Virus record (IMG/VR): IMGVR_UViG_3300006028_000033
Span: 1-25,338 of that record
Strand: one strand, 5' to 3'
From: a virus
Length of the DNA stretch: 25,338 nucleotides
The notes beneath the pieces are model-generated. The model was not told the origin of the DNA and did not search any database. It saw nothing but the letters and a program-made list of their open reading frames with translations. Positions 15,454-25,338 of this stretch are shown in pieces; the first letter of the stretch is position 1, and every line of letters starts with the position of its first letter. The translations under genes and the position numbers were made by a program.

Positions 15454-16110
15454 TCAGCCGTTGATACTCCAGCGGGCGAGCTTTCCTTCGTAGAAATAGA
15501 CGTAATTATATCGATCCAGGTCGTATGGTCGAAAGGTCCATGTTTCTATCGTGCCGCCGACGCCGCTGTCATAACTCTTGGTCATCGGTTTACCCCAGGA
15601 TGCCTCCACCATTTCCCGCGTCATACCGACCGCCACGTCACCCTTCATAATGCTCTTCACCATTTGATCTGATAACTCTGGATGCTGATTCACGAACTTT
15701 TGCCGACGTTGCTTCTCTGAATCTAATTCGGCAGTCCATTGCTTATCAGCTTCCTCTTTAGTATGTTCTACGGTGGGCAAAAGCTGAACGTCGATATTTT
15801 GGTTCGCTATGAATTGGCTGCATGTCTGACGCCAAACGTCGTAACCAGGTTTTGAGACCTCCAGATAATAGGTAAGTATCGATGAGGTTGGATAAAAGGT
15901 AACCGCATCTGCGGCCTGCGATTGACGGATAACAGGCAAGAATTCGCCTTTATCGTGGTCATAGATAACGATCCGTTTAAAAGCATCTTTGGGTGTCGAT
16001 TGGATATTGATAGAAACTGGCGCGAGCGGGACGGTCGCGCATGCCGAGAGCGAGAGCGCCAGAATAATGGCGGGAAACATTTTTAGAGCGATTGTGAGGA
16101 TGGTCTTCAT
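15454..16110 (-). CDS. Lipoprotein with BamE/SmpA-like C-terminal domain
   Basis: 218 aa. N-terminal lipoprotein signal: basic start, hydrophobic core (FPAIILALSLSAC) and lipobox LSAC with Cys24 as the lipidated residue. The next residue is Ala, so sorting to the outer membrane is plausible. Residues about 35-115 are beta-rich and read like a PEGA-type strand set (SINIQSTPKDA, YYLEVSKPGY). A helix with a charged run follows. Residues about 148-215 carry the BamE/SmpA pattern: SIMKGDVAVGMTREMVEASWGKP, WTFRP and YVYFYEGKLARW. BamE is an accessory of the beta-barrel assembly machine. This gene is cargo, not phage structure, and may change the host envelope. Its start overlaps the upstream stop by 4 bp. 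Confidence 0.75.
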   Translation of the reverse strand: MKTILTIALKMFPAIILALSLSACATVPLAPVSINIQSTPKDAFKRIVIYDHDKGEFLPVIRQSQAADAVTFYPTSSILTYYLEVSKPGYDVWRQTCSQFIANQNIDVQLLPTVEHTKEEADKQWTAELDSEKQRRQKFVNQHPELSDQMVKSIMKGDVAVGMTREMVEASWGKPMTKSYDSGVGGTIETWTFRPYDLDRYNYVYFYEGKLARWSING

Positions 16111-16463
16111 AAGCGAGATTTAGTTGAGCCGCGTCGCGGCAAGAGAGTTAGATTCGATTCGGGAGAGCGTAGATCGCGGGCGATCAATGCTTCGATAAAA
16201 GCTTTCAAGCTGAGGCCGGCCGCTGAGGCCAGCCGTGCTGCAAGCGAGCCCACCTGCCGACGGAGGTAGCAGCCCACCCGCTGGCGCGCGAATTTCTTGG
16301 AATCCGGCTCTCGCCGCAATCGGCTCGGTGCCTGGGCCTGATTCCATACAAGCGCCGCGACATAGCCGCTGACCGTGAGATTCAATTGCGCTGCGCGAAG
16401 CGGTGTCTTGACCGCGATCTGGGGCAGCAGTTTGAGCGAGGAGTCTCGCGCGGATGAACGCAC
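16107..16463 (-). CDS. Ribbon-helix-helix-like small protein
   Basis: 118 aa from GTG 16463; an in-frame stop lies just upstream, and no ATG is available. Two stretches look like RHH cores: a basic strand plus helices PQIAVKTPLRAAQLNLTVSGYVAALV (about 14-39), and LASAAGLSLKAFIEALIARDL (about 78-98). The pattern, Leu-x-Leu-Ser/Thr-x-Ser-x-Tyr/Phe-Ile/Val followed by an amphipathic helix, is usual in RHH regulators and mobilisation proteins. It overlaps the lipoprotein start by 4 bp, so it might regulate that cargo. An overlapping frame at 16120-16560 is also open, which lowers certainty. Confidence 0.5.
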   Translation of the reverse strand: MRSSARDSSLKLLPQIAVKTPLRAAQLNLTVSGYVAALVWNQAQAPSRLRREPDSKKFARQRVGCYLRRQVGSLAARLASAAGLSLKAFIEALIARDLRSPESNLTLLPRRGSTKSRL

Positions 16464-16466
16464 CTC

Positions 16467-16525
16467 TGCAAGGAATCAGCAGGGGTCTTGCAGAACAATT
16501 GCCCTTAAGACCCGGTTTCCGGGTC
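16467..16525. repeat. Two inverted repeats upstream of the RHH-like gene
   Basis: The proximal one is TGCAAG (16467-16472) with CTTGCA (16487-16492), separated by 14 bases and 4 bp from the GTG start. The distal one is a perfect 7-bp dyad, GACCCGG (16509-16515) and CCGGGTC (16519-16525), with a 3-base centre. Neither has a U-run. They could be operators for the RHH-like protein. The rest of the region from 16526 to 16677 shows no gene and no confident promoter. Confidence 0.45.
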
Positions 16526-16677
16526 CGATGTGGGCATCTATATGTTTTCGATCCTTTCATCAGTGCTTGGCTATTGCTCTTTTTGGGTTAAGAAACTCCG
16601 AACCAGGCCGATTATTACATGAAAATACGTAGTAAACTTGCTTTCACTTGCTGTGAGCCCTACGCGGAATCACCGCT

Positions 16678-16902
16678 GTGCTCGCCCGCGCGAAAATAAT
16701 CCAATTTACGACAGTGCCAGAATCCAAGGACATGGAAGTCGAGCGTTTGCGAAAAGAACTCGCCGAAGCCGAGCGTGAGTTGGCGACACAAAAGGAAGTT
16801 ATACGACTGATGGTGGATACGATGCCCCATGATATTTATGATATTTTCCGCTCGCGTTTCGAAGCTGCTCGCTTGCGCTCCTTATCATCAAAGATTTCCT
16901 GA
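16678..16902 (+). CDS. Short coiled-coil protein (74 aa), uncertain
   Basis: Starts GTG 16678; ATG 16732 gives a 56-aa form. The central helix MEVERLRKELAEAERELATQKEVIRLMV (about 19-46) is a convincing coiled coil with Leu/Val heptads, and composition is protein-like. The last 67 bp overlap the end of the convergent repressor gene, which counts against it. Most likely a small regulator-like protein or a fortuitous frame. I include it at low confidence. Confidence 0.35.
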   Translation: MLARAKIIQFTTVPESKDMEVERLRKELAEAERELATQKEVIRLMVDTMPHDIYDIFRSRFEAARLRSLSSKIS

Positions 16903-17333
16903 AGCGAAGGTGGTATAGGGCCTGACAGTGGAGATTCGTTTGCTGTTTTGGAGTGGCCGTCATCTGTGAGACGTAGAAAAAGAGCCCGCAGCTCCACACG
17001 AATCCAGCCTAACCGACCTGGATCATTGCCGACAGTTTTTATAAGCCGCTCCATTTCTATTAATATGTCGGCGCGTAACAGCTCACAAATTTCAGAGCTA
17101 GAGCCTTTCACTTCACGAATATGAACTTCACGTGTTGACTGCTTGTTCTCAAAAAGAACACGGAACGACTCCAGATCGCGAATAACTCTCATCGAAGGTT
17201 CCTGAATACCTGCTTCGATCTTCGCGATGTAGTTCCGCGATATCAGTAGGCGCCTAGCCATTTCGTGCTGCGTTAAACCAAGCTGACCACGGACTAGCTT
17301 AAACCTGGCGGCTATTTTGTTCTCTTTATCCAC
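16836..17333 (-). CDS. XRE-family repressor
   Basis: 165 aa from GTG 17333. Residues 7-62 are an XRE helix-turn-helix: ARFKLVRGQLGLTQHEMARRLLISRNYIAKIEAG with the typical TQHEMA helix 2 and SRNYIAKIEAG recognition helix. Residues about 70-125 are helical and may serve in dimerisation; the tail is basic. It is transcribed away from the Ner/Cro-like gene, which is the arrangement of lysogeny switches in Mu-like phages, so a c-type repressor role is likely. The switch gap of 56 bp carries a dyad. No Shine-Dalgarno sequence is visible at the start. Confidence 0.8.
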   Translation of the reverse strand: MDKENKIAARFKLVRGQLGLTQHEMARRLLISRNYIAKIEAGIQEPSMRVIRDLESFRVLFENKQSTREVHIREVKGSSSEICELLRADILIEMERLIKTVGNDPGRLGWIRVELRALFLRLTDDGHSKTANESPLSGPIPPSLQEIFDDKERKRAASKRERKIS

Positions 17334-17341
17334 TTTAATGA

Positions 17342-17376
17342 TTGACTTGTGTTCTCTGTGTCAACAAACGTTGACA
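17342..17376. promoter_or_regulatory. Candidate switch operator
   Basis: A perfect 7-bp inverted repeat TGTCAAC (17359-17365) and GTTGACA (17370-17376) with a 4-base centre lies between the divergent repressor and Ner-like genes. A third half-site TTGAC (17342-17346) lies 17 bp to its left. The half-site contains TTGACA, so binding would cover a -35-like hexamer on either strand. No clear -10 box for the plus-strand early promoter is visible. Confidence 0.6.
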
Positions 17377-17389
17377 AAGTAAACCACCA

Positions 17390-17572
17390 ATGCGAACCGG
17401 AGCACAAGCAAAATTTAGGCATCGCGTTAAAACTTGGCTGATCCTTCGGGATATGACCTTGACGGAATTCGCGAATAAAATTGGCCGACGAAGAGACACT
17501 GTTTCTACCGCAATCAATCGAGGCCGATTTCCAAGGGTACGCAAACAGATCGAGGAGGCGTTGCATCTATGA
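17390..17572 (+). CDS. Ner/Cro-like small HTH protein
   Basis: 60 aa starting MRTGAQAKFRHRVKTWLIL. Residues about 15-45 give a helix-turn-helix: LILRDMTLTEFANKIGRRRDTVSTAINRG, with EFANKIG as helix 2 and RRRDTVSTAINRG as the recognition helix; the C-terminus is a short helix. It is the first gene of the early unit, divergent from the repressor, where Mu has ner. It probably down-regulates early and repressor transcription. It overlaps the next gene by 4 bp (ATGA). Confidence 0.7.
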   Translation: MRTGAQAKFRHRVKTWLILRDMTLTEFANKIGRRRDTVSTAINRGRFPRVRKQIEEALHL

Positions 17573-17802
17573 GCCTCAAACTTTCCGCTCACGCCTATCT
17601 ATACTCTTTTTTGCTCCAGCAGATCGCCAATCAACCGACTGCGCAGGCGCTGCTTTTGTATCGAGCCCTTGCTGTAGAGACCGATGACAAACTACTTTCC
17701 GAAGCCTGCCACAAGCGTGCAGATGAGCTTGAGAGCTTAATTCATAATCATCGGCAGATGTCATTAGCGTTCAGGCGGAGAAACGAAAGAAATGCCACTT
17801 AG
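17569..17802 (+). CDS. Early hypothetical protein (77 aa)
   Basis: A mostly helical protein starting MSLKLSAHAYLYSFLLQQIA, with many Ala/Leu residues and an ADELESLIHNHRQMSLAFRRR basic end. Residues about 10-35 could form an amphipathic helix. No motif is recognised. It is translationally coupled to the Ner-like gene (4-bp overlap), and the next gene starts 3 bp after its stop. An early regulatory or host-takeover role would be a guess. Confidence 0.6.
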   Translation: MSLKLSAHAYLYSFLLQQIANQPTAQALLLYRALAVETDDKLLSEACHKRADELESLIHNHRQMSLAFRRRNERNAT

Positions 17803-17805
17803 ATC

Positions 17806-18144
17806 ATGGCCGCGATCGCTCAACAGTTAGAATTCCCCTTCTCTAGCCTGGACTTCCCTGGCCAGTCGGTTCTCACGGTCCACCAGATCGCGGAAAAACT
17901 CGGCGTCACCGATCAGCACATTCTCGACCTTATCGAGGAGCACAAATTTCCCGCGCTCGATCTCAAGGGCAAATCCGCCAGCCGCCGCCTGCTGCGGATC
18001 CCGATCGAGATCTACCGCGATTTCATCATCGCCACCATGACCGGGCCTTATCGCCGGAAGTTCATGGCGGACCTGCCCCGCGCCACCCTGCGAGAGCTGA
18101 AACGCGAAATCGACTCCATTCTCTCCACTCCCGTTTACGCATGA
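17806..18144 (+). CDS. Excisionase-like HTH protein
   Basis: 112 aa. Residues about 22-68 read as an HTH_17/MerR-type domain: SVLTVHQIAEKLGVTDQHILDLIEEHKFPAL followed by SRRLLRIPIEIYRDFI, the wing-and-helix pattern found in excisionases and small DNA-binding adaptors. The C-terminal half is helical and basic, ending LKREIDSILSTPVYA. In a transposable phage it could act as an architectural protein for the transposase or as a regulator; excision in the lambda sense is not expected. It overlaps the next gene by 4 bp. Confidence 0.65.
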   Translation: MAAIAQQLEFPFSSLDFPGQSVLTVHQIAEKLGVTDQHILDLIEEHKFPALDLKGKSASRRLLRIPIEIYRDFIIATMTGPYRRKFMADLPRATLRELKREIDSILSTPVYA

Positions 18145-18863
18145 AAGGCAACCTCTCCGACGATAAGAAAGTCGCACTCGCGCTGCTCGATGATAAGCAA
18201 ATACGCACCACTGGTGCGAATTTGGACACCCTGCAAAGGGCCGCGATTACTCAGATTGCTCTAGTGCGGCGCATGGAGAGCGAATCCGCCTTGCGGGCTA
18301 TCCTCGTCGGCATGGCTCTCATGCGGGTCAAGCATTCGCTGGCGCACGGCGAGTTTATGCCGTGGCTGAAAAAGAACTTGGATGCTACGGCGCATCGGCA
18401 GGCGAACTACTACATGCGTCTCGGGCTCGTCTTCCTGGAGAAGACGAAGGCTACCAAGCCCGAGGTGCTCGCACTGCCGGGTGATCAAGCTGAGCTCTCG
18501 CTCGATAACATCGAAGGACCGGCGAGGCGGCTCATGGAGAAAATGACGAAGTTCGTGGGCGACAAGTCTCTCAACGAGCTGCTCAGCGAGCACGCGATCA
18601 AGGACGGCAAAGCGCTGGGAGGCGCGCGCAAGGGAGGAAAAGAGGACAAGCGCAGCGAGGAGGAGAAGCTCGCCGAGGTGCGCGAATTCAAACTGGCGGA
18701 ACTCAATGCGTGGCTCGCTAGCGGAGAACAGCTCCTCATCGCAGAGAACGTTTGCCAATTTCTGAGCGCGAAAGAGATCGAGCGGTTCCACGGCCAGCTT
18801 CTCGACCTCAAGACTAATTTCACAAAGGCCATTCAACCCCTGCTTAAGAAAGCAAAGTCATGA
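18141..18863 (+). CDS. DUF3102-like early protein
   Basis: 240 aa. Residues about 45-105 carry the DUF3102-like core: SALRAILVGMALMRVKHSLAHGEFMPWLKK, then ATAHRQANYYMRLGLVF. Such domains appear in phage and plasmid proteins and are thought to bind DNA. The middle is basic and low-complexity (GGARKGGKEDKRSEEEK), and the C-terminus is helical. It is sandwiched between the excisionase-like gene and the transposase with 4-bp overlaps on both sides, so it is probably a component of the transposition or early control module. Its function is unknown. Confidence 0.65.
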   Translation: MKGNLSDDKKVALALLDDKQIRTTGANLDTLQRAAITQIALVRRMESESALRAILVGMALMRVKHSLAHGEFMPWLKKNLDATAHRQANYYMRLGLVFLEKTKATKPEVLALPGDQAELSLDNIEGPARRLMEKMTKFVGDKSLNELLSEHAIKDGKALGGARKGGKEDKRSEEEKLAEVREFKLAELNAWLASGEQLLIAENVCQFLSAKEIERFHGQLLDLKTNFTKAIQPLLKKAKS

Positions 18864-21046
18864 GCGAAACCGCCCTGCAGCTCGTTTCCACCGACGAGGC
18901 TCCTCTCGCCAATCCTCTCCGCTTTAGCATCCCCGTGGAAGACATGGGAGAATTTGCCCTCCTCCCCGAAGCGAGACGCTTCGAGGTTAACTTCACGCTG
19001 GCGCTCCTTTCCAAGGTCGCGAGCGTGAACAATTTCGTGGCCGCGACCAATGATCTCGCGGTCAAGTATCCGCATATCCGGGGAATGAGCGGTCCGAGCC
19101 TGCGCCGGAAATTCTACGCGTATCGCGACTCACAAGGCGACTGGCGTTGTTTGGTGAAGGGCTACAAGGCTCCGAAGAAACTGGCGGATGCTTTCGGGCC
19201 GTACATCAAGGGCTTGATCGAACAGAATGGGCGCTGCATTTCCGGGGCGCTGCGCCAACTGCACGATTGTTGGGAGAGAGGCGAAGAAGTGCCAGGCTAC
19301 GGCACCTGGCGCGATTGGTTCATCGCTACGCATCCCACGCTGCCCTTGCCCAAAAAGTTCCCAGGACAATATCCGCAAGGCTGGAGCACCCGCAATCTTC
19401 GCCGCTATGCGCCGAGCCGCGCCGAACGCAGCTACATGACACGCGGCCTGACCGCCGCTCATGCGCATCTGCCGAAACTCAAGCGCGATACTTCCAATCT
19501 TCGGCCAATGGAGTGGATCGTGTTAGACGACTTCGAGCTCGATGTGATGAGCGCCTTCCTGGGCGATCCATCGCGCAACATAAAACCGCAGATCGCCTAC
19601 GTGGCGGGCCTCATGGCGATGTGCGTGGGCACCCGCAAGCATCTAGCCTGGATGCTTGGGCCTCAAGTGGAGCGTGACGAGCGCCAGCCCGACGGCACGG
19701 TGAAGAAAGTGCGCTGCGGAGTCCGCGCGATCGACGTGCAGGGGTTGCTCTATAAGATTTTCTCGGAACATGGGCTGCCGGAATATCCGGTAACACTCAT
19801 CGTCGAAAACGCGGCCGCTGCGATCAAACCCGAGCTGGAGCTGATGCTCTCCACCGTTTTCGAAGGCCGCATCCGGGTGCAGCGCACAAGTCTGATTCAA
19901 CACAAGACGCTGCCTAACGGTTATCTCGAAAGAGGCGGCACGCCCTGGGAAAAAGGATGGGTCGAGAGCGACTTCAATTATCTCTGGGGCAGCCTGGCCG
20001 CTCTCCCTGGTTACAAGGGCAGCAATGAACGCCTCAATGCGCCAGGCGATCACGCCGAAAAACTTCGGCAGATGAAAATCCTATTCGGCCAGGGCTCCGG
20101 GAAATTGAACTTGCCACCGGAGATCCTTGAGCAGCTCCGGCTGCCATTCCCAAGTCTGGATATTCTGGAGAAGACTTTCGCGCAAGTGCTCGCGCGCAGC
20201 GAGCAGCGCACGAACCACAAGTTCAATGGGTTCGATGCTGTCACCGAGTTTCACTGGGCAAACCCGGCCTTGCCGCCGCCAGAGGGCATCGATCCCGCAG
20301 GGCCGAACGATTTCCGAGCGCTGGCGGTACTCGACCAAACGCAAATGCAAATGATGCGCCCTGTTGGCAGGAAGGAATCCTCGATCGAACGCTGGGAACG
20401 GCTCTCCGTGCAAAATGCCCGCAAGCCACTCTCGGCTGGGATTCTGGCACTCTTCCTCCTCACGCCAAAGGAAGTCGTGCTGCGCAACCACAGCGTAACC
20501 TTCACGCACAACAAGACCGGCTATACGTACATTGACGAAAAAGGCGATGTCTTGGCCGGGTTGGAGGAGGGCACCAAGCTGCTCGTCTATGTGGACCTGC
20601 AGCATCCTCGCACGGCCCTTGTAACGACTTTGCAAGGAGCGGTCCGGGGAACGCTGGCGATGCTCGGAGGAAGCGCACGCGGCGTCGATGTGATGGACTC
20701 CGAAGCGATGAAGGCCGCGCGGGCTCAGCGCGCCACGGTGGTCAATCGCGTGATTTCGGAAGTGCGGGCGCGGCCGCTGCATGTGGCCAAGAACGAACAG
20801 CTCGCCGCCGATCGCTCGCACAATGAGGCCCTCATCGAGCGCTATGAGGCCGAGACCGCGCAGCTCACCACCGCGCAGAAAATCGCTGCAGCGGTATCCG
20901 ATGAGGCCGGCCGCGAAGCCGAAGAGCAGAGCACAGTGAAAGCATTGCGCAGCGCACGCAATGAATCGGAGCAACTCCTCTCGGGAGAATCCGCCAGCAA
21001 GGAAGCCGGATCCTCGGACGAACTCTCTAGCGACCAATTTCTTTAG
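18860..21046 (+). CDS. MuA-like DDE transposase
   Basis: 728 aa, longer than MuA (663). The catalytic core spans about residues 210-400. First acidic position: MEWIVLDDFELDV (D223/D224). Second: VTLIVENAAAAI, where E316 stands in place of the usual Asp-Asn. Third: WEKGWVESDFNYLWGSLAALPGYKG, probably E369, followed by the LPGYKG motif common after the last Glu. Residues about 535-590 match the Mu-transposase C-terminal beta-barrel (LTPKEVVLRNHSVTFTH, KLLVYVDL). A helical Ala/Glu-rich tail (640-728) would contact the MuB-like ATPase. It performs strand transfer at the phage ends. Residues 40-100 contain an N-terminal winged-helix-like region. The gene is coupled to the one upstream. Confidence 0.9.
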   Translation: MSETALQLVSTDEAPLANPLRFSIPVEDMGEFALLPEARRFEVNFTLALLSKVASVNNFVAATNDLAVKYPHIRGMSGPSLRRKFYAYRDSQGDWRCLVKGYKAPKKLADAFGPYIKGLIEQNGRCISGALRQLHDCWERGEEVPGYGTWRDWFIATHPTLPLPKKFPGQYPQGWSTRNLRRYAPSRAERSYMTRGLTAAHAHLPKLKRDTSNLRPMEWIVLDDFELDVMSAFLGDPSRNIKPQIAYVAGLMAMCVGTRKHLAWMLGPQVERDERQPDGTVKKVRCGVRAIDVQGLLYKIFSEHGLPEYPVTLIVENAAAAIKPELELMLSTVFEGRIRVQRTSLIQHKTLPNGYLERGGTPWEKGWVESDFNYLWGSLAALPGYKGSNERLNAPGDHAEKLRQMKILFGQGSGKLNLPPEILEQLRLPFPSLDILEKTFAQVLARSEQRTNHKFNGFDAVTEFHWANPALPPPEGIDPAGPNDFRALAVLDQTQMQMMRPVGRKESSIERWERLSVQNARKPLSAGILALFLLTPKEVVLRNHSVTFTHNKTGYTYIDEKGDVLAGLEEGTKLLVYVDLQHPRTALVTTLQGAVRGTLAMLGGSARGVDVMDSEAMKAARAQRATVVNRVISEVRARPLHVAKNEQLAADRSHNEALIERYEAETAQLTTAQKIAAAVSDEAGREAEEQSTVKALRSARNESEQLLSGESASKEAGSSDELSSDQFL

Positions 21047-21123: not shown

Positions 21124-22290
21124 ATGGCTGCCAATGAAGAAACGCCATCCGATCAGGATGAGCAAGCAAATGAACGCAACGTCGAGGCGGGCGATACCGT
21201 GCGCGCCTCGTGGCCAGTATCGCTCGATACGCTGCGCAAGAACGTCAGCAACAGCTCTGCGGAAGCGCAGGAGCTGATCGTCTGGTGTTTTCTGTGGTGC
21301 ATCGATGCCGCGCATCCTTACCGCGTGCAAGAATTCGCCGCGCGGGTCGGAGCAGACACGACCACCATCACCCGGATTATCCAGGGCAAGTACACGAACC
21401 CGAATTCTCAGGAGCGGATGCCGATCTCCGAAAAACTCACGCGGGCGATGGACGCTTTTAAGAAGCTTGAGATCGAGCGTTCGCAATCCAAGCGCTCGGT
21501 GTTCGTCCTCACGCCGACGGCCAAGCGGATCCAGAATGCCTGCGAACTCGCACGCGAGAGCCAGTCGCCTGTCTTTGTCGTAGGGCCTTCTCATATCGGA
21601 AAGACTTGGGCCTTAAAGAACCATACCGAGGACAATAACCACGGCCGCACGATCTATGTGCGCCTGCAGGCGGCTAGCGGCCTGGGAGGCATGGTGCGCG
21701 CGATCGCCGAGGCCTGCGGGATCTCCACCAAGCAGCCTACGGCAAGACTGGTCGAGCGGCTCAAGCACGCGCTCAAGCCGAACATGCTGCTCATCTTGGA
21801 TGAGGTCCACCAGCTCATGTACACCTACCGCAAGGAAGCTTTCTTCGCCTGCTTGGAGGTCATCCGCGAGATTTACGATGCGGTAGGGTGCGGCCTGGTC
21901 CTCTGCGGCACGAAGCTGCTCCTCAATCACGTGCGCACGAATAAGGACGAGCTGGAACAGCTCATGCGGCGGGGCGTCCACAAGATCATTCTGCCCGACA
22001 TGCCGACGAAGGGCGATGTGGAGGCGATCCTCCGCGAGATCGGCGAAATCGAATTCCCGGCGCGAGCGATGCAAGTGACGGTCAGCGTCGGCGGCCGCCC
22101 GATCGTCGAGCGTCCCTATGAAATTCTCCGTCAAGTCGGCAAGGACGAAGGACTCAAGGCAATCACCGAGCGCCTGCGTTACGGCCAAAAATTGGCCTCG
22201 AAGGCCAAGGCCAGCCTCTCATGGGAGCACTTCGTTCGCGCCCATCTGATCATCAAGCAGAACGCCATTCCTGAAAGCGATTGGGATTAA
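21124..22290 (+). CDS. MuB-like AAA+ ATPase, target-DNA selection
   Basis: 388 aa. Residues about 66-92 form an HTH (RVQEFAARVGADTTTITRIIQG), as in the N-terminal domain of MuB. Walker A is GPSHIGKT (154-161), Walker B LLILDE (222-227), and a sensor-1-like segment GLVLCGTK is at about 257-264. ATP-dependent filaments on target DNA recruit the transposase and give target immunity. It starts at ATG 21124 with AAGGGA about 8 bases upstream. MuB is normally about 312 aa, so this is longer, with an acidic N-terminal tail (1-30). It is downstream of the transposase, as B is of A in Mu. Confidence 0.9.
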   Translation: MAANEETPSDQDEQANERNVEAGDTVRASWPVSLDTLRKNVSNSSAEAQELIVWCFLWCIDAAHPYRVQEFAARVGADTTTITRIIQGKYTNPNSQERMPISEKLTRAMDAFKKLEIERSQSKRSVFVLTPTAKRIQNACELARESQSPVFVVGPSHIGKTWALKNHTEDNNHGRTIYVRLQAASGLGGMVRAIAEACGISTKQPTARLVERLKHALKPNMLLILDEVHQLMYTYRKEAFFACLEVIREIYDAVGCGLVLCGTKLLLNHVRTNKDELEQLMRRGVHKIILPDMPTKGDVEAILREIGEIEFPARAMQVTVSVGGRPIVERPYEILRQVGKDEGLKAITERLRYGQKLASKAKASLSWEHFVRAHLIIKQNAIPESDWD

Positions 22291-22701: not shown

Positions 22702-22964
22702 AATACGTTTTCTTAGCCAGAGAAGACGGCAAGGGCATCGAGCGCCTCCTCTGCTGCTGCGCTCCCGTGACTCATGGCGAAATGGCCGAGGCTCATGCCA
22801 AGGAGGGATACAAGCCTGTTAGCGCGGGCTTTTTCAAAGTTAAGCCGGATGGCTCTGTCGAAACCTTCGGCTCCAGCTCTTCTCTAAAAATCGGGCCTCG
22901 GCCCAATGATGCAAACCGCATCTATCACCTCACTCAAGCCACTATCACCCTAGGATCAATGTGA
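22698..22964 (+). CDS. Early hypothetical protein (88 aa)
   Basis: ATG 22698 (MKYVFLAREDGKGIERLL) overlaps the preceding stop as ATGA, so this start is preferred over the longer frame that begins inside the membrane protein gene. Beta-strand start, a Cys triplet at residues 19-21 (LLCCCAPV), a helix (GEMAEAHAKEGYKPV), then strands (AGFFKVKPDGSVETFG). It looks like a small alpha/beta protein. The last bases overlap the GTG start of the Gam-like gene. Confidence 0.6.
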   Translation: MKYVFLAREDGKGIERLLCCCAPVTHGEMAEAHAKEGYKPVSAGFFKVKPDGSVETFGSSSSLKIGPRPNDANRIYHLTQATITLGSM

Positions 22965-23506
22965 AAACTACTTCTGTCACTCCCGCCGAGCTCGACGTGC
23001 TCGCCTATAAATACTCCACAGATCGAATGGAGCTTTCCAAACGCGTTGCCACTTTCCAGGACCAGATTGCTGCCATCAACCGGCGTTTCCTTCCAGGTAT
23101 AAAGGCCGCTGCATCGCGGGCTACAGATTCTCAGGCGCTCTTACGCGATGCAATTGAAGGTTCGCCTGATCTCTTCGTTAAACCGCGCACCATGACGCTC
23201 CACGGCATCAAGGTGGGCTATCAGAAGGGCAAAGGTAAGATCGAATTCGATGACCCTGAGCGCGTCGTCGAACTGATCGAGAAGTTGCTGCCCGATTTGG
23301 TCTCCGCGCTCATCGAAACGAAGCGCGTGCCGGTGAAAGATGCGCTCAAGAATTTGTCCGTCAAGGATCTGCGGCGCATCGGCTGCACAGTTGAAGAAAC
23401 GGGCGATCAGATCGTGATTAAGGCGGCCGACAGCGAAGTCGACAAGCTTGTCGCAAGAATCCTCGTGGAGGGCGCGAGCGATCTGGAGGAACCTGGCCAT
23501 GTTTAA
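22961..23506 (+). CDS. Mu Gam-like DNA-end-binding protein
   Basis: 181 aa from GTG 22961, which overlaps the previous stop by 4 bases. An N-terminal coiled helix (about 8-50) is followed by HGIKVGYQKGKGKIEFDDPERVVELIEKLLP (81-111), TKRVPVKDALKNLSVKDLRRIG (120-141), CTVEETGDQIVIK (142-154) and SEVDKLV (158-164). This is the usual order of Gam-like proteins, which bind double-strand DNA ends like eukaryotic Ku and protect phage DNA from exonucleases. Its place after the ATPase matches Mu early-region genes. Confidence 0.85.
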   Translation: MKTTSVTPAELDVLAYKYSTDRMELSKRVATFQDQIAAINRRFLPGIKAAASRATDSQALLRDAIEGSPDLFVKPRTMTLHGIKVGYQKGKGKIEFDDPERVVELIEKLLPDLVSALIETKRVPVKDALKNLSVKDLRRIGCTVEETGDQIVIKAADSEVDKLVARILVEGASDLEEPGHV

Positions 23507-23771
23507 ATTACCCGAAGGATCGGGCTTCAAAGTTCCCATGCTTAGATTGCCTTATGCCTCGGCTCATCGCTCGCATCTTTGCCCCGTCGATCAAGTGCCC
23601 AAGGAAAAATCCTGGCATCTCGTTTGCCCGGCCTGTTGGCAAACTGTTCCGATCGCTGATCGCGAGGAGGTTTATCGCCTTTATAAGACTGAACGTGGCT
23701 CAGAACGGCATGTCCTCAAATGCCGGACCGTTGTGCGGCATTTGATGGAAGAGAGGAGGGCCATCCGATGA
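23499..23771 (+). CDS. Small Cys-containing protein (90 aa)
   Basis: ATG 23499 (MFKLPEGSGFKVPML) has a GGAGGA ribosome site about 8 bases upstream, which decides it over a longer frame starting at 23448. Cys residues in HLCPVD and VCPACWQ, with LKCR further on, could make a zinc-binding knuckle, but one pair is not a clean CxxC. The C-terminus is helical and basic (RHVLKCRTVVRHLMEERR). It is coupled to the next gene by 4 bp. A DNA- or RNA-binding role is possible. Confidence 0.55.
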   Translation: MFKLPEGSGFKVPMLRLPYASAHRSHLCPVDQVPKEKSWHLVCPACWQTVPIADREEVYRLYKTERGSERHVLKCRTVVRHLMEERRAIR

Positions 23772-23941
23772 AGGCTTTTCTCTGGATAAGTTTCAGCATT
23801 TACGGCGTGAATATCTTCTCCGCCATCGTCGGTTTGCTGACGACAAACAGTCGAACGAAATGGCCCGTCATCGTCATAAATATCACACAGCTTGCTCTGT
23901 TTGAGCTGATGGCGATCTGGACCTGGAGGCTGCTATCGTGA
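23768..23941 (+). CDS. Small membrane protein (57 aa), two segments
   Basis: ATG 23768 overlaps the previous stop as ATGA. The sequence MKAFLWISFSIYGVNIFSAI gives one transmembrane helix (about 4-24), a short loop with basic residues (NSRTKWP), and a second helix VIVINITQLALFELMAIW (about 33-51). No homology is recognised. Overlap with the next GTG start by 4 bp suggests coupled translation. Possible superinfection-exclusion or membrane-modifying protein, by analogy of size only. Confidence 0.6.
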   Translation: MKAFLWISFSIYGVNIFSAIVGLLTTNSRTKWPVIVINITQLALFELMAIWTWRLLS

Positions 23942-24384
23942 GCGCCAGGATCTCAAAAGCTCTGGCCCATTTTAAGGACAGGCATCGGGCAATGCTTATT
24001 GCCGCCGACGATCTTGTCTCCGCTCTGGATGCGGAGGCCGCACTCTATGTTGATATACCTGACCGTCTTCCTGCCGATGTTCAGATCATATTCGATGAGG
24101 TCGCAGCGCACAATCGGATCGAGAGCCGCCTTCTGCTCTCTCGCAATATTTCCTGGCAGCTATCGATGATCAGACACACGGCGATCGCGCTCTGCTTAAG
24201 ATTGGGGAAGGCGGATTCCAAAGAGATAGCCGCGTATTTCAACAAAGGAGTTCACTCGGTCTATCATTCCCGCCAGGCCTTTAACGACAGGTATCATACC
24301 GATCGCAGATTCCGAAATGACTTTGAGATTCTGGAGTCGAAGATCCTGGCAAAGCTCGATGCGCTAAGAAAGGTGCCCTCGTGA
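23938..24384 (+). CDS. Early protein with DnaA domain IV-like C-terminus
   Basis: 148 aa from GTG 23938. Residues about 74-128 follow the pattern of the DNA-binding domain IV of DnaA: WQLSMIRHTAIALCLRLG, KEIAAYFNKGVHSVYHSR (compare DHSTV/H in DnaA signature), then a closing helix. The N-terminal 70 residues are helical and lack any AAA+ motif, so this is not an initiator. It may bind DnaA-box-like sites as a middle or late regulator (Mu has Mor at a related position) or interfere with host initiation. The assignment rests on visual pattern. It overlaps both neighbours by 4 bp. Confidence 0.55.
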   Translation: MSARISKALAHFKDRHRAMLIAADDLVSALDAEAALYVDIPDRLPADVQIIFDEVAAHNRIESRLLLSRNISWQLSMIRHTAIALCLRLGKADSKEIAAYFNKGVHSVYHSRQAFNDRYHTDRRFRNDFEILESKILAKLDALRKVPS

Positions 24385-24539
24385 CTCATATTTGGCGATG
24401 GAAATGCCGCCTGGGCGACCGCTATGGCCAATCCTGCCGCGTTCTTGCTCGGGGCAAGATGAACTCATGCCTCGTTGAGTTTTCTGATGGCTATAAGGTC
24501 GTTACGAGCCGCTGGGCAGTGCGAAAGCTAAAAGCATGA
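24381..24539 (+). CDS. Conserved small phage protein (52 aa)
   Basis: Translated from GTG 24381, which overlaps the previous stop as GTGA; it ends at TGA 24537-24539 and overlaps the next ATG. The sequence begins MTHIWRWKCRLGDRYGQSC and ends VTSRWAVRKLKA. Three Cys, basic residues and the pattern CRLGDRYGQ, VLARG, MNSCLVEFSDGYKVVTSR match a type of short beta-rich protein I recall from phages and prophages; the function is unknown. The tight overlaps on both sides support that it is real. Confidence 0.7.
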   Translation: MTHIWRWKCRLGDRYGQSCRVLARGKMNSCLVEFSDGYKVVTSRWAVRKLKA

Positions 24540-24745
24540 ATATGGCCCTAATCAAAGCCAATATTGAGGGTCAAAATGCCTTCCGTGGCGGCCTGAACCA
24601 TCGCGCAAATCCTCACGATGAGCATGCGGCATTTTTCGTCCATCTTGCCTGGTTCAATGGCTGGTTGATCGCAGCTGTTGAACAAGAGATTGGCGAAAAA
24701 ATCCTGGTCACTGATCAACCCTATTTTGGAGAGCAGTTAACCTAA
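24536..24745 (+). CDS. RMF-like small protein
   Basis: 69 aa starting MNMALIKANIEGQNAFRGGL. The core EGQNAFRGGLNHRANPHDEHA then HLAWFNGW (about 11-43) matches the ribosome modulation factor signature (Gly-x-x-Ala-x-x-x-Gly, Asn-Pro-Tyr/His, then x-x-W-x-x-Gly-Trp). RMF dimerises 70S ribosomes in stationary phase. RMF-like proteins occur in phages, where the role is not established. Longer C-terminal tail than E. coli RMF (55 aa). Overlaps the next gene as TAATG. Confidence 0.65.
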   Translation: MNMALIKANIEGQNAFRGGLNHRANPHDEHAAFFVHLAWFNGWLIAAVEQEIGEKILVTDQPYFGEQLT

Positions 24746-25083
24746 TGAAAAAACAAAAACCGGTTCCCGCCCAATACCGTCAGGGCGATGTCCTAATCGA
24801 GCGACGAGGTTCAAAACCCGATGCTTTGAAACCAAAGGTCCGAGAAAATGGCCGGATCGTCCTGGCGCATGGCTCGGCCACCGGTCATGCCCATGCAATC
24901 GCTTCCAAGTGCGCGAGCCATTTCGATGGCGATAATGTAGGGATGACCCATCTCGAAGTGAAGGGTGGCAAGGCTGCCATTCAACACGAGGAGCATTCAA
25001 CCATAACTCTTGCGCCGGGCCACTATGATGTGATCCGCCAACGTGAATTTTTTCCAGAGGAGGTGCGCCGTGTTACCGACTAA
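24745..25083 (+). CDS. QGDVLI-type His-rich phage protein (112 aa)
   Basis: Starts MKKQKPVPAQYRQGDVLIERR. The pattern YRQGDVLI (11-18), VLAHGSATGHAHAI (39-52), IQHEEHSTITLAPGHYDVIRQREF (79-102) matches a common small phage protein type with no known function. His residues at 42, 48, 50 and 81, 84 could form a metal site in a cupin-like beta-barrel; this is an inference from spacing. ATG 24745 overlaps the preceding TAA by one base. Confidence 0.7.
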   Translation: MKKQKPVPAQYRQGDVLIERRGSKPDALKPKVRENGRIVLAHGSATGHAHAIASKCASHFDGDNVGMTHLEVKGGKAAIQHEEHSTITLAPGHYDVIRQREFFPEEVRRVTD

Positions 25084-25338
25084 AGAATCCCCTTTGCCAT
25101 CCATCGATGTGCTGATGGATCGTTTTAAAACGTCCTGCGATTTGCGTCAGCAAATCGACAGGGAAAAAATTTTTCGCTGTTTCACGGAGTGGCTTCCCAA
25201 GATCACGAAACAGAAACTATCGATCCGTTTCGTTGACTCGATCGAGCAAGCGAACATAGCCGCCAGAGCCGCCATAGACGCCAGAGCCGCCATAGCCGCC
25301 AGAGCCGCCATAGACGCCAGAGCCGCCATAGCCGCCAG
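25070..25338 (+). CDS. Partial ORF with alanine-rich hexapeptide repeat
   Basis: GTG 25070 has a strong GAGGAGG ribosome site 6-7 bases upstream and overlaps the end of the previous gene by 14 bp. The frame is open for 89 codons to the window edge. Residues 1-60 (MLPTKESPLPSIDVLMDRF..., with CDLRQQIDREKIFRCFTEWL) look like a real helical domain. From residue about 64 onward the sequence is repeats of (A/D)ARAAI, which would make an amphipathic or coiled helix. The 3' end is outside the window. Confidence 0.65.
   Translation, partial: MLPTKESPLPSIDVLMDRFKTSCDLRQQIDREKIFRCFTEWLPKITKQKLSIRFVDSIEQANIAARAAIDARAAIAARAAIDARAAIAA
25259..25338 (+). repeat. 18-bp tandem repeat, at least 4.4 copies
   Basis: Units run 25259-25276, 25277-25294, 25295-25312, 25313-25330 and a partial copy at 25331. 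Odd units read GCCGCCAGAGCCGCCATA and even units differ only by C to A at the second base, so the effective period is 36 bp. The copies are otherwise identical, meaning recent expansion. It is in frame within the ORF above and codes for (A/D)ARAAI. It ends at the window edge, so total length is unknown. Confidence 0.9.

Follow-up and report, generated by a model that had tools for sequence, protein, structure and literature searches.

A stand-alone DnaA domain IV-like protein with replaced box-reading residues in the early operon of a Mu-like phage

Introduction

What could a protein built like the DNA-binding domain of DnaA do in the early operon of a Mu-like phage, if the ATPase of the initiator is missing from it? 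The question is raised by a protein of 148 residues encoded in a 25,338-base stretch of viral DNA (the window, by which we mean the whole stretch analysed here). An earlier note on this DNA had seen in it a DnaA domain IV without an AAA+ domain, placed where phage Mu encodes its activator Mor, and had offered two roles: activation of the late genes through DnaA-box-like sites, or a decoy that disturbs host initiation. Phages commonly encode stand-alone proteins of the DnaA C-terminal type. They are often named replication initiators, few have been tested, and the two studied cases that we name, GafA and GafY, activate transcription.

Results

The gene and its surroundings

With MuA-, MuB- and Gam-like genes on its + strand and head and packaging genes on its - strand, the window is Mu-like. 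The reading frame at 23938-24384 on the + strand is a genuine gene, with coding-like GC fractions at the three codon positions (0.58/0.39/0.60). The features to which we refer below are:

18860..21046, + strand: MuA-like transposase (phrog_310, E 5.5e-19)
21124..22290, + strand: MuB-like AAA+ transposition protein (phrog_296, E 1.6e-31; Pfam AAA_22 and TniB)
22961..23506, + strand: Gam-like end-protection protein, the conserved upstream landmark (Pfam Phage_Mu_Gam, E 2.6e-6; phrog_491, E 1.2e-14)
23720..23941, + strand: small membrane-protein-like ORF, its stop overlapping the start of the DnaA-like gene
23925..23929, + strand: Shine-Dalgarno-like GGAGG, 8 nt 5' of the GTG start
23938..24384, + strand: gene of the stand-alone DnaA domain IV-like protein, 148 aa, GTG start at 23938 (Pfam, TIGR00362, phage profile, AlphaFold model)
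23941..24072, + strand: codons of residues 2-45, a long helix (2-35) and a linker (block pLDDT about 62-80)
24073..24360, + strand: codons of residues 46-141, the DnaA domain IV fold (AlphaFold model and structural alignment)
24381..24539, + strand: next ORF, 52 aa, its start overlapping the stop of the DnaA-like gene
24745..25083, + strand: conserved early protein (phrog_27831)

An early ORF at 25070-25338 contains 9-base repeats coding runs like AARAAIDARAAI and runs off the contig end; other early genes with short repeats are found in relatives (L022 1296-2288; L021 6542-7339; L097 7701-7911, with GSGYGSGDG; L024 2547-3245, pentapeptide-like). Rfam gave no match, a promoter scan of 15900-17900 returned 2 sites with 1.8 expected, and a search of the switch region for repeats yielded nothing convincing.

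A DnaA domain IV fold without the ATPase

The protein's sole Pfam match, to Bac_DnaA_C (PF08299), covers residues 49-108 at E 9.3e-6; its 26 bits fall short of the curated cut-off (31.5). The DnaA model TIGR00362 (NCBIfam) is matched at its C-terminal end by residues 47-136 (E 1.6e-5). A profile made from eleven other phage proteins, with the window protein left out, gives it 40.7 bits (E 2e-11); the highest score among 2000 shuffles was 8.3, and no other frame of the window exceeded 6.8. A PHROG search with the window protein gave no significant match. By sequence it is a divergent member of the domain IV family, and it is the match of the predicted fold that carries the assignment. The AlphaFold model is confident (mean pLDDT 87.5), and its residues 46-141 superimpose on the M. 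tuberculosis DnaA-DBD (3PVP) with Z 16.2 and rmsd 1.4 over 96 residues; E. coli DnaA domain IV (1J1V) follows with Z 15.6, the rmsd across the alignments to these two structures being 1.4-1.5 over 93-96 residues, and the first unrelated fold, DeoR, reaches Z 6.2. The helices of the domain in the model span residues 46-58, 63-67, 73-88, 94-100, 105-121 and 123-144. Residues 2-45 have no family match and are a candidate partner or dimer surface.

The identification of the C-terminal half as domain IV is thereby upheld, and the outcomes that the earlier note had named as refuting it, no structural match to this fold or a clear match to another HTH family, did not occur. A profile of the window protein and seven relatives, run against the PDB, found DnaA chains only (6/6, best E 1e-20). 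Equally confirmed is the lack of an AAA+ ATPase, domain III of DnaA, from the 148 residues, in which only domain IV is matched; the AAA+ protein encoded in the operon is the MuB-like one.

The box-reading residues are replaced

Window residues 46-141 align with residues 411-506 of M. tuberculosis DnaA-DBD, and as both ranges comprise 96 residues, the structural alignment has no gap and the register is fixed. In this register, R-D-H-T-T of DnaA becomes K-G-V-H-S, so that the "conserved His-Ser" after the helix-turn-helix, on which the earlier note had relied, is out of register by one position. The residues that read the DnaA box are replaced (R399 by I71, D433 by G104, H434 by V105 and T435 by H106), among them R399, the minor-groove arginine of DnaA; R407 is kept. 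In E. coli DnaA, the substitutions R399A and T435M impair binding to the box (PMC5742627). Because these residues are replaced, binding to the DnaA box, whether for regulation or as a decoy, is unlikely for the window protein, and judging from its residues it should have a different binding site.

The DNA itself agrees with this. A search of the window for DnaA boxes gave 2 near-matches with 2.63 expected, which is chance level. The 9-mer noted previously at 17326-17334 does exist, where it overlaps the opening codons of the repressor gene, which is read from the - strand, and its presence is of the order that chance would produce.

Relatives and gene order

Queried directly with the protein or with MuA, the viral, genome, phage and plasmid collections yielded no relatives, and tblastn with the window MuA had no match in 50,697 phage records. 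Relatives were reached via the terminase, which led to 57 related viral records, some of them fragments. As only seven of these 57 Mu-like records contain a Bac_DnaA_C match, the DnaA-like gene is accessory; a profile search of the 50 larger records brought up no further DnaA-IV proteins. The PF08299 cut-off is passed by five relatives and missed by P0002 (29.4 bits) and G014 (25.3).

Like the window, five of the seven carriers (G007, G013, G037, G026 and G024) have gam upstream of the DnaA-like gene and on its strand; G014 and G016 gave no Gam match. The DnaA-like gene stands directly after gam in G026 and G037, and in G037 (L096) a relative of the window protein at 24745-25083 is encoded directly downstream of it. 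The order in G024 is MuA, MuB, Gam, DnaA-like gene, gemA and a further conserved gene, and in G007 the DnaA-like gene sits just before a gemA-like gene, called by eye and without a Pfam match. The N-terminal parts of the DnaA-like proteins vary among the relatives. In the protein of G037 (L096 6001-6717), the extra N-terminal residues 13-96 match phrog_2831 (E 2.7e-12), so that this related phage has a fusion of the DNA-binding domain with a second domain.

The contact residues are graded across the carriers: in G013, G026 and G037, R399 is retained and the recognition motif is intact or nearly so (RDHGTV, FDHGTV, FNHSTV), those of G007 and G024 are partly changed, and the window protein departs furthest. 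Strict DnaA boxes number 0-1 per relative in six records with the protein and five without it, with no clear enrichment.

Another conserved gene occupies the Mor slot in relatives

The supposition that the gene takes Mor's position is contradicted by the relatives, in which it precedes gemA and a different conserved gene follows gemA; G024 has both. The window ends before any gemA, and from the relatives we infer that its DnaA-like gene likewise belongs to the accessory stretch between gam and gemA, outside the Mor slot. The other gene encodes a conserved protein of ~200 residues that ends the early operon (L098 10800-11417; L021 4590-5165, - strand; L111 177-806, - strand). It is found at the early-operon end in G003, G013 and G024, behind gemA in G003 and G024, and accompanies a DnaA-like gene in G013 and G024. 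The member scanned has no Pfam match and the model of this Mor-slot protein is poor (pLDDT 60.6); we regard it as a candidate Mor replacement. The Mor/C family (PF08765) had no match in 50 records, the window and 49 related ones.

Discussion

What can be said about the role of a DnaA domain IV that has neither the ATPase nor the box-reading residues? Taken together, the absent ATPase and the replaced residues make a transcription regulator with a site of its own the most economical reading: a stand-alone DnaA-fold DNA-binding protein of new specificity, acting like GafY or the N-terminal domain of GafA, to which we would assign a probability of about 0.5. Without the ATPase, the protein could not form the initiator filament, which would leave it with sequence-specific DNA binding and one partner surface, the binding presumably directed to a site other than the DnaA box. 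Made early, such a regulator might bind DNA near a promoter and contact RNA polymerase via the rest of the protein, with the late genes as only one option among its targets. There are tested precedents. To activate gene transfer agent promoters, GafA of Rhodobacter needs its DnaA-like N-terminal domain, whose point mutants mostly fail (PMC9638019). In Caulobacter, the separate protein GafY occupies DNA upstream of promoters, makes contact with RpoD and acts together with IHF and GafZ (PMC11150451). For the window protein, neither a binding site nor a target promoter came to light, and its occurrence in 7 of 57 records counts against a regulator: nearly all of these phages should carry a late activator, unless the task falls to different proteins.

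From the proposal of a late-gene activator using DnaA-box-like sites, the activator role thus survives as plausible, given GafA and GafY, and the use of boxes does not, with the contact residues replaced and the boxes not enriched. That the protein specifically replaces Mor as activator of the late genes is nevertheless improbable. With Mor not found in the 50 records searched, another protein presumably does its job in these phages, and both GafA and GafY directly activate phage-like late clusters; however, the DnaA-like gene lies outside the Mor slot, most relatives have no such protein, and G013 and G024 also possess the conserved gene that closes the early operon. The accessory distribution speaks against a role as general late activator, and so does the second conserved gene that some relatives have in the Mor slot.

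A DnaA-like fragment could instead act on the host, competing with DnaA or its regulators and so shifting initiation to the phage's favour. GafY was first named HdaB, for the effect of its overproduction on chromosome replication in Caulobacter (PMC9632790), so that the two ideas of the earlier note share one precedent, and an accessory stretch after gam would suit such a function. Simple competition for boxes, and with it the decoy, is disfavoured by the replaced residues and the unenriched boxes, but an effect via protein contacts could still be exerted; overall we hold an influence on host replication to be unlikely. More doubtful still appears a part in the transposition-replication of the phage or another DNA step, for instance in binding phage DNA and recruiting replication proteins. 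The same operon encodes the MuA-, MuB- and Gam-like proteins, and some phage proteins consisting of domain IV only match phrog_27829, "DnaA-like replication initiation protein", a name given by similarity only. Yet without the AAA+ domain an action in the manner of DnaA is impossible, most related Mu-like phages do without the gene, and the stretches searched hold no convincing repeated site.

A wider and quite speculative scenario is one in which Mu-like phages have repeatedly recruited the DNA-binding domain of DnaA as a swappable regulator module. It would arrive still reading the box, as in G013, and drift to a new specificity, as in the window and G024, changing its N-terminal partners on the way, and so would found a class of phage transcription regulators derived from DnaA, with GafA and GafY as its domesticated branch; we think this improbable. 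For annotation, a member without the box-reading residues argues against the label of replication initiator. The prediction for the window protein is specific DNA binding, but at a motif other than the DnaA box TTATNCACA.

Comparison with known systems

With bacterial DnaA domain IV (PF08299; 1J1V, 3PVP), the window protein shares the fold over residues 46-141, the order of the helices and R407; it differs in lacking the AAA+ and the other DnaA domains, and in the replacement of R399, D433, H434 and T435. Mor of phage Mu is likewise encoded in the later part of a Mu-like early operon, but belongs to another family, PF08765 having no match in the window protein, and its slot lies after gemA, whereas the DnaA-like gene of the relatives lies before it.

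Stand-alone phage proteins with the DnaA fold are a known kind, common and, judging from the literature searched, mostly untested. In BFVD, dozens of predicted viral proteins match the model, many of them named "Chromosomal replication initiator, DnaA C-terminal". Like these and the families phrog_34198, phrog_27829 and phrog_16091, the window protein is small and consists of just this domain, but it has no significant PHROG match and sits in a Mu-like early operon; a literature search found no paper linking DnaA domain IV with Mu-like phages. Proteins with only the DnaA domain also occur on viral contigs outside the terminase set (L099 5866-6297, L100 4570-5199, L101 6031-6354, L102 5800-6141 and L103 5549-6049), all five with an intact RDH(T/S)T motif, and in L102 the gene lies ~2.5 kb before apparent terminase genes.

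For a possible function, the comparison is with GafA and GafY. A candidate GafA homologue from RDJL Phi 1 (P0003), taken as such from its adjacency to ctrA and its DUF6456, matched neither Bac_DnaA_C nor the phage DnaA-IV profile, and no GafZ-like partner is recognised in the early operon of the window. GafA and GafY are tested activators, whereas the role of the window protein is one that we infer; what it has in common with GafY/HdaB and the N-terminal domain of GafA is a DnaA-like DNA-binding domain that, without an ATPase, serves a phage-like element (PMC9638019, PMC9632790).
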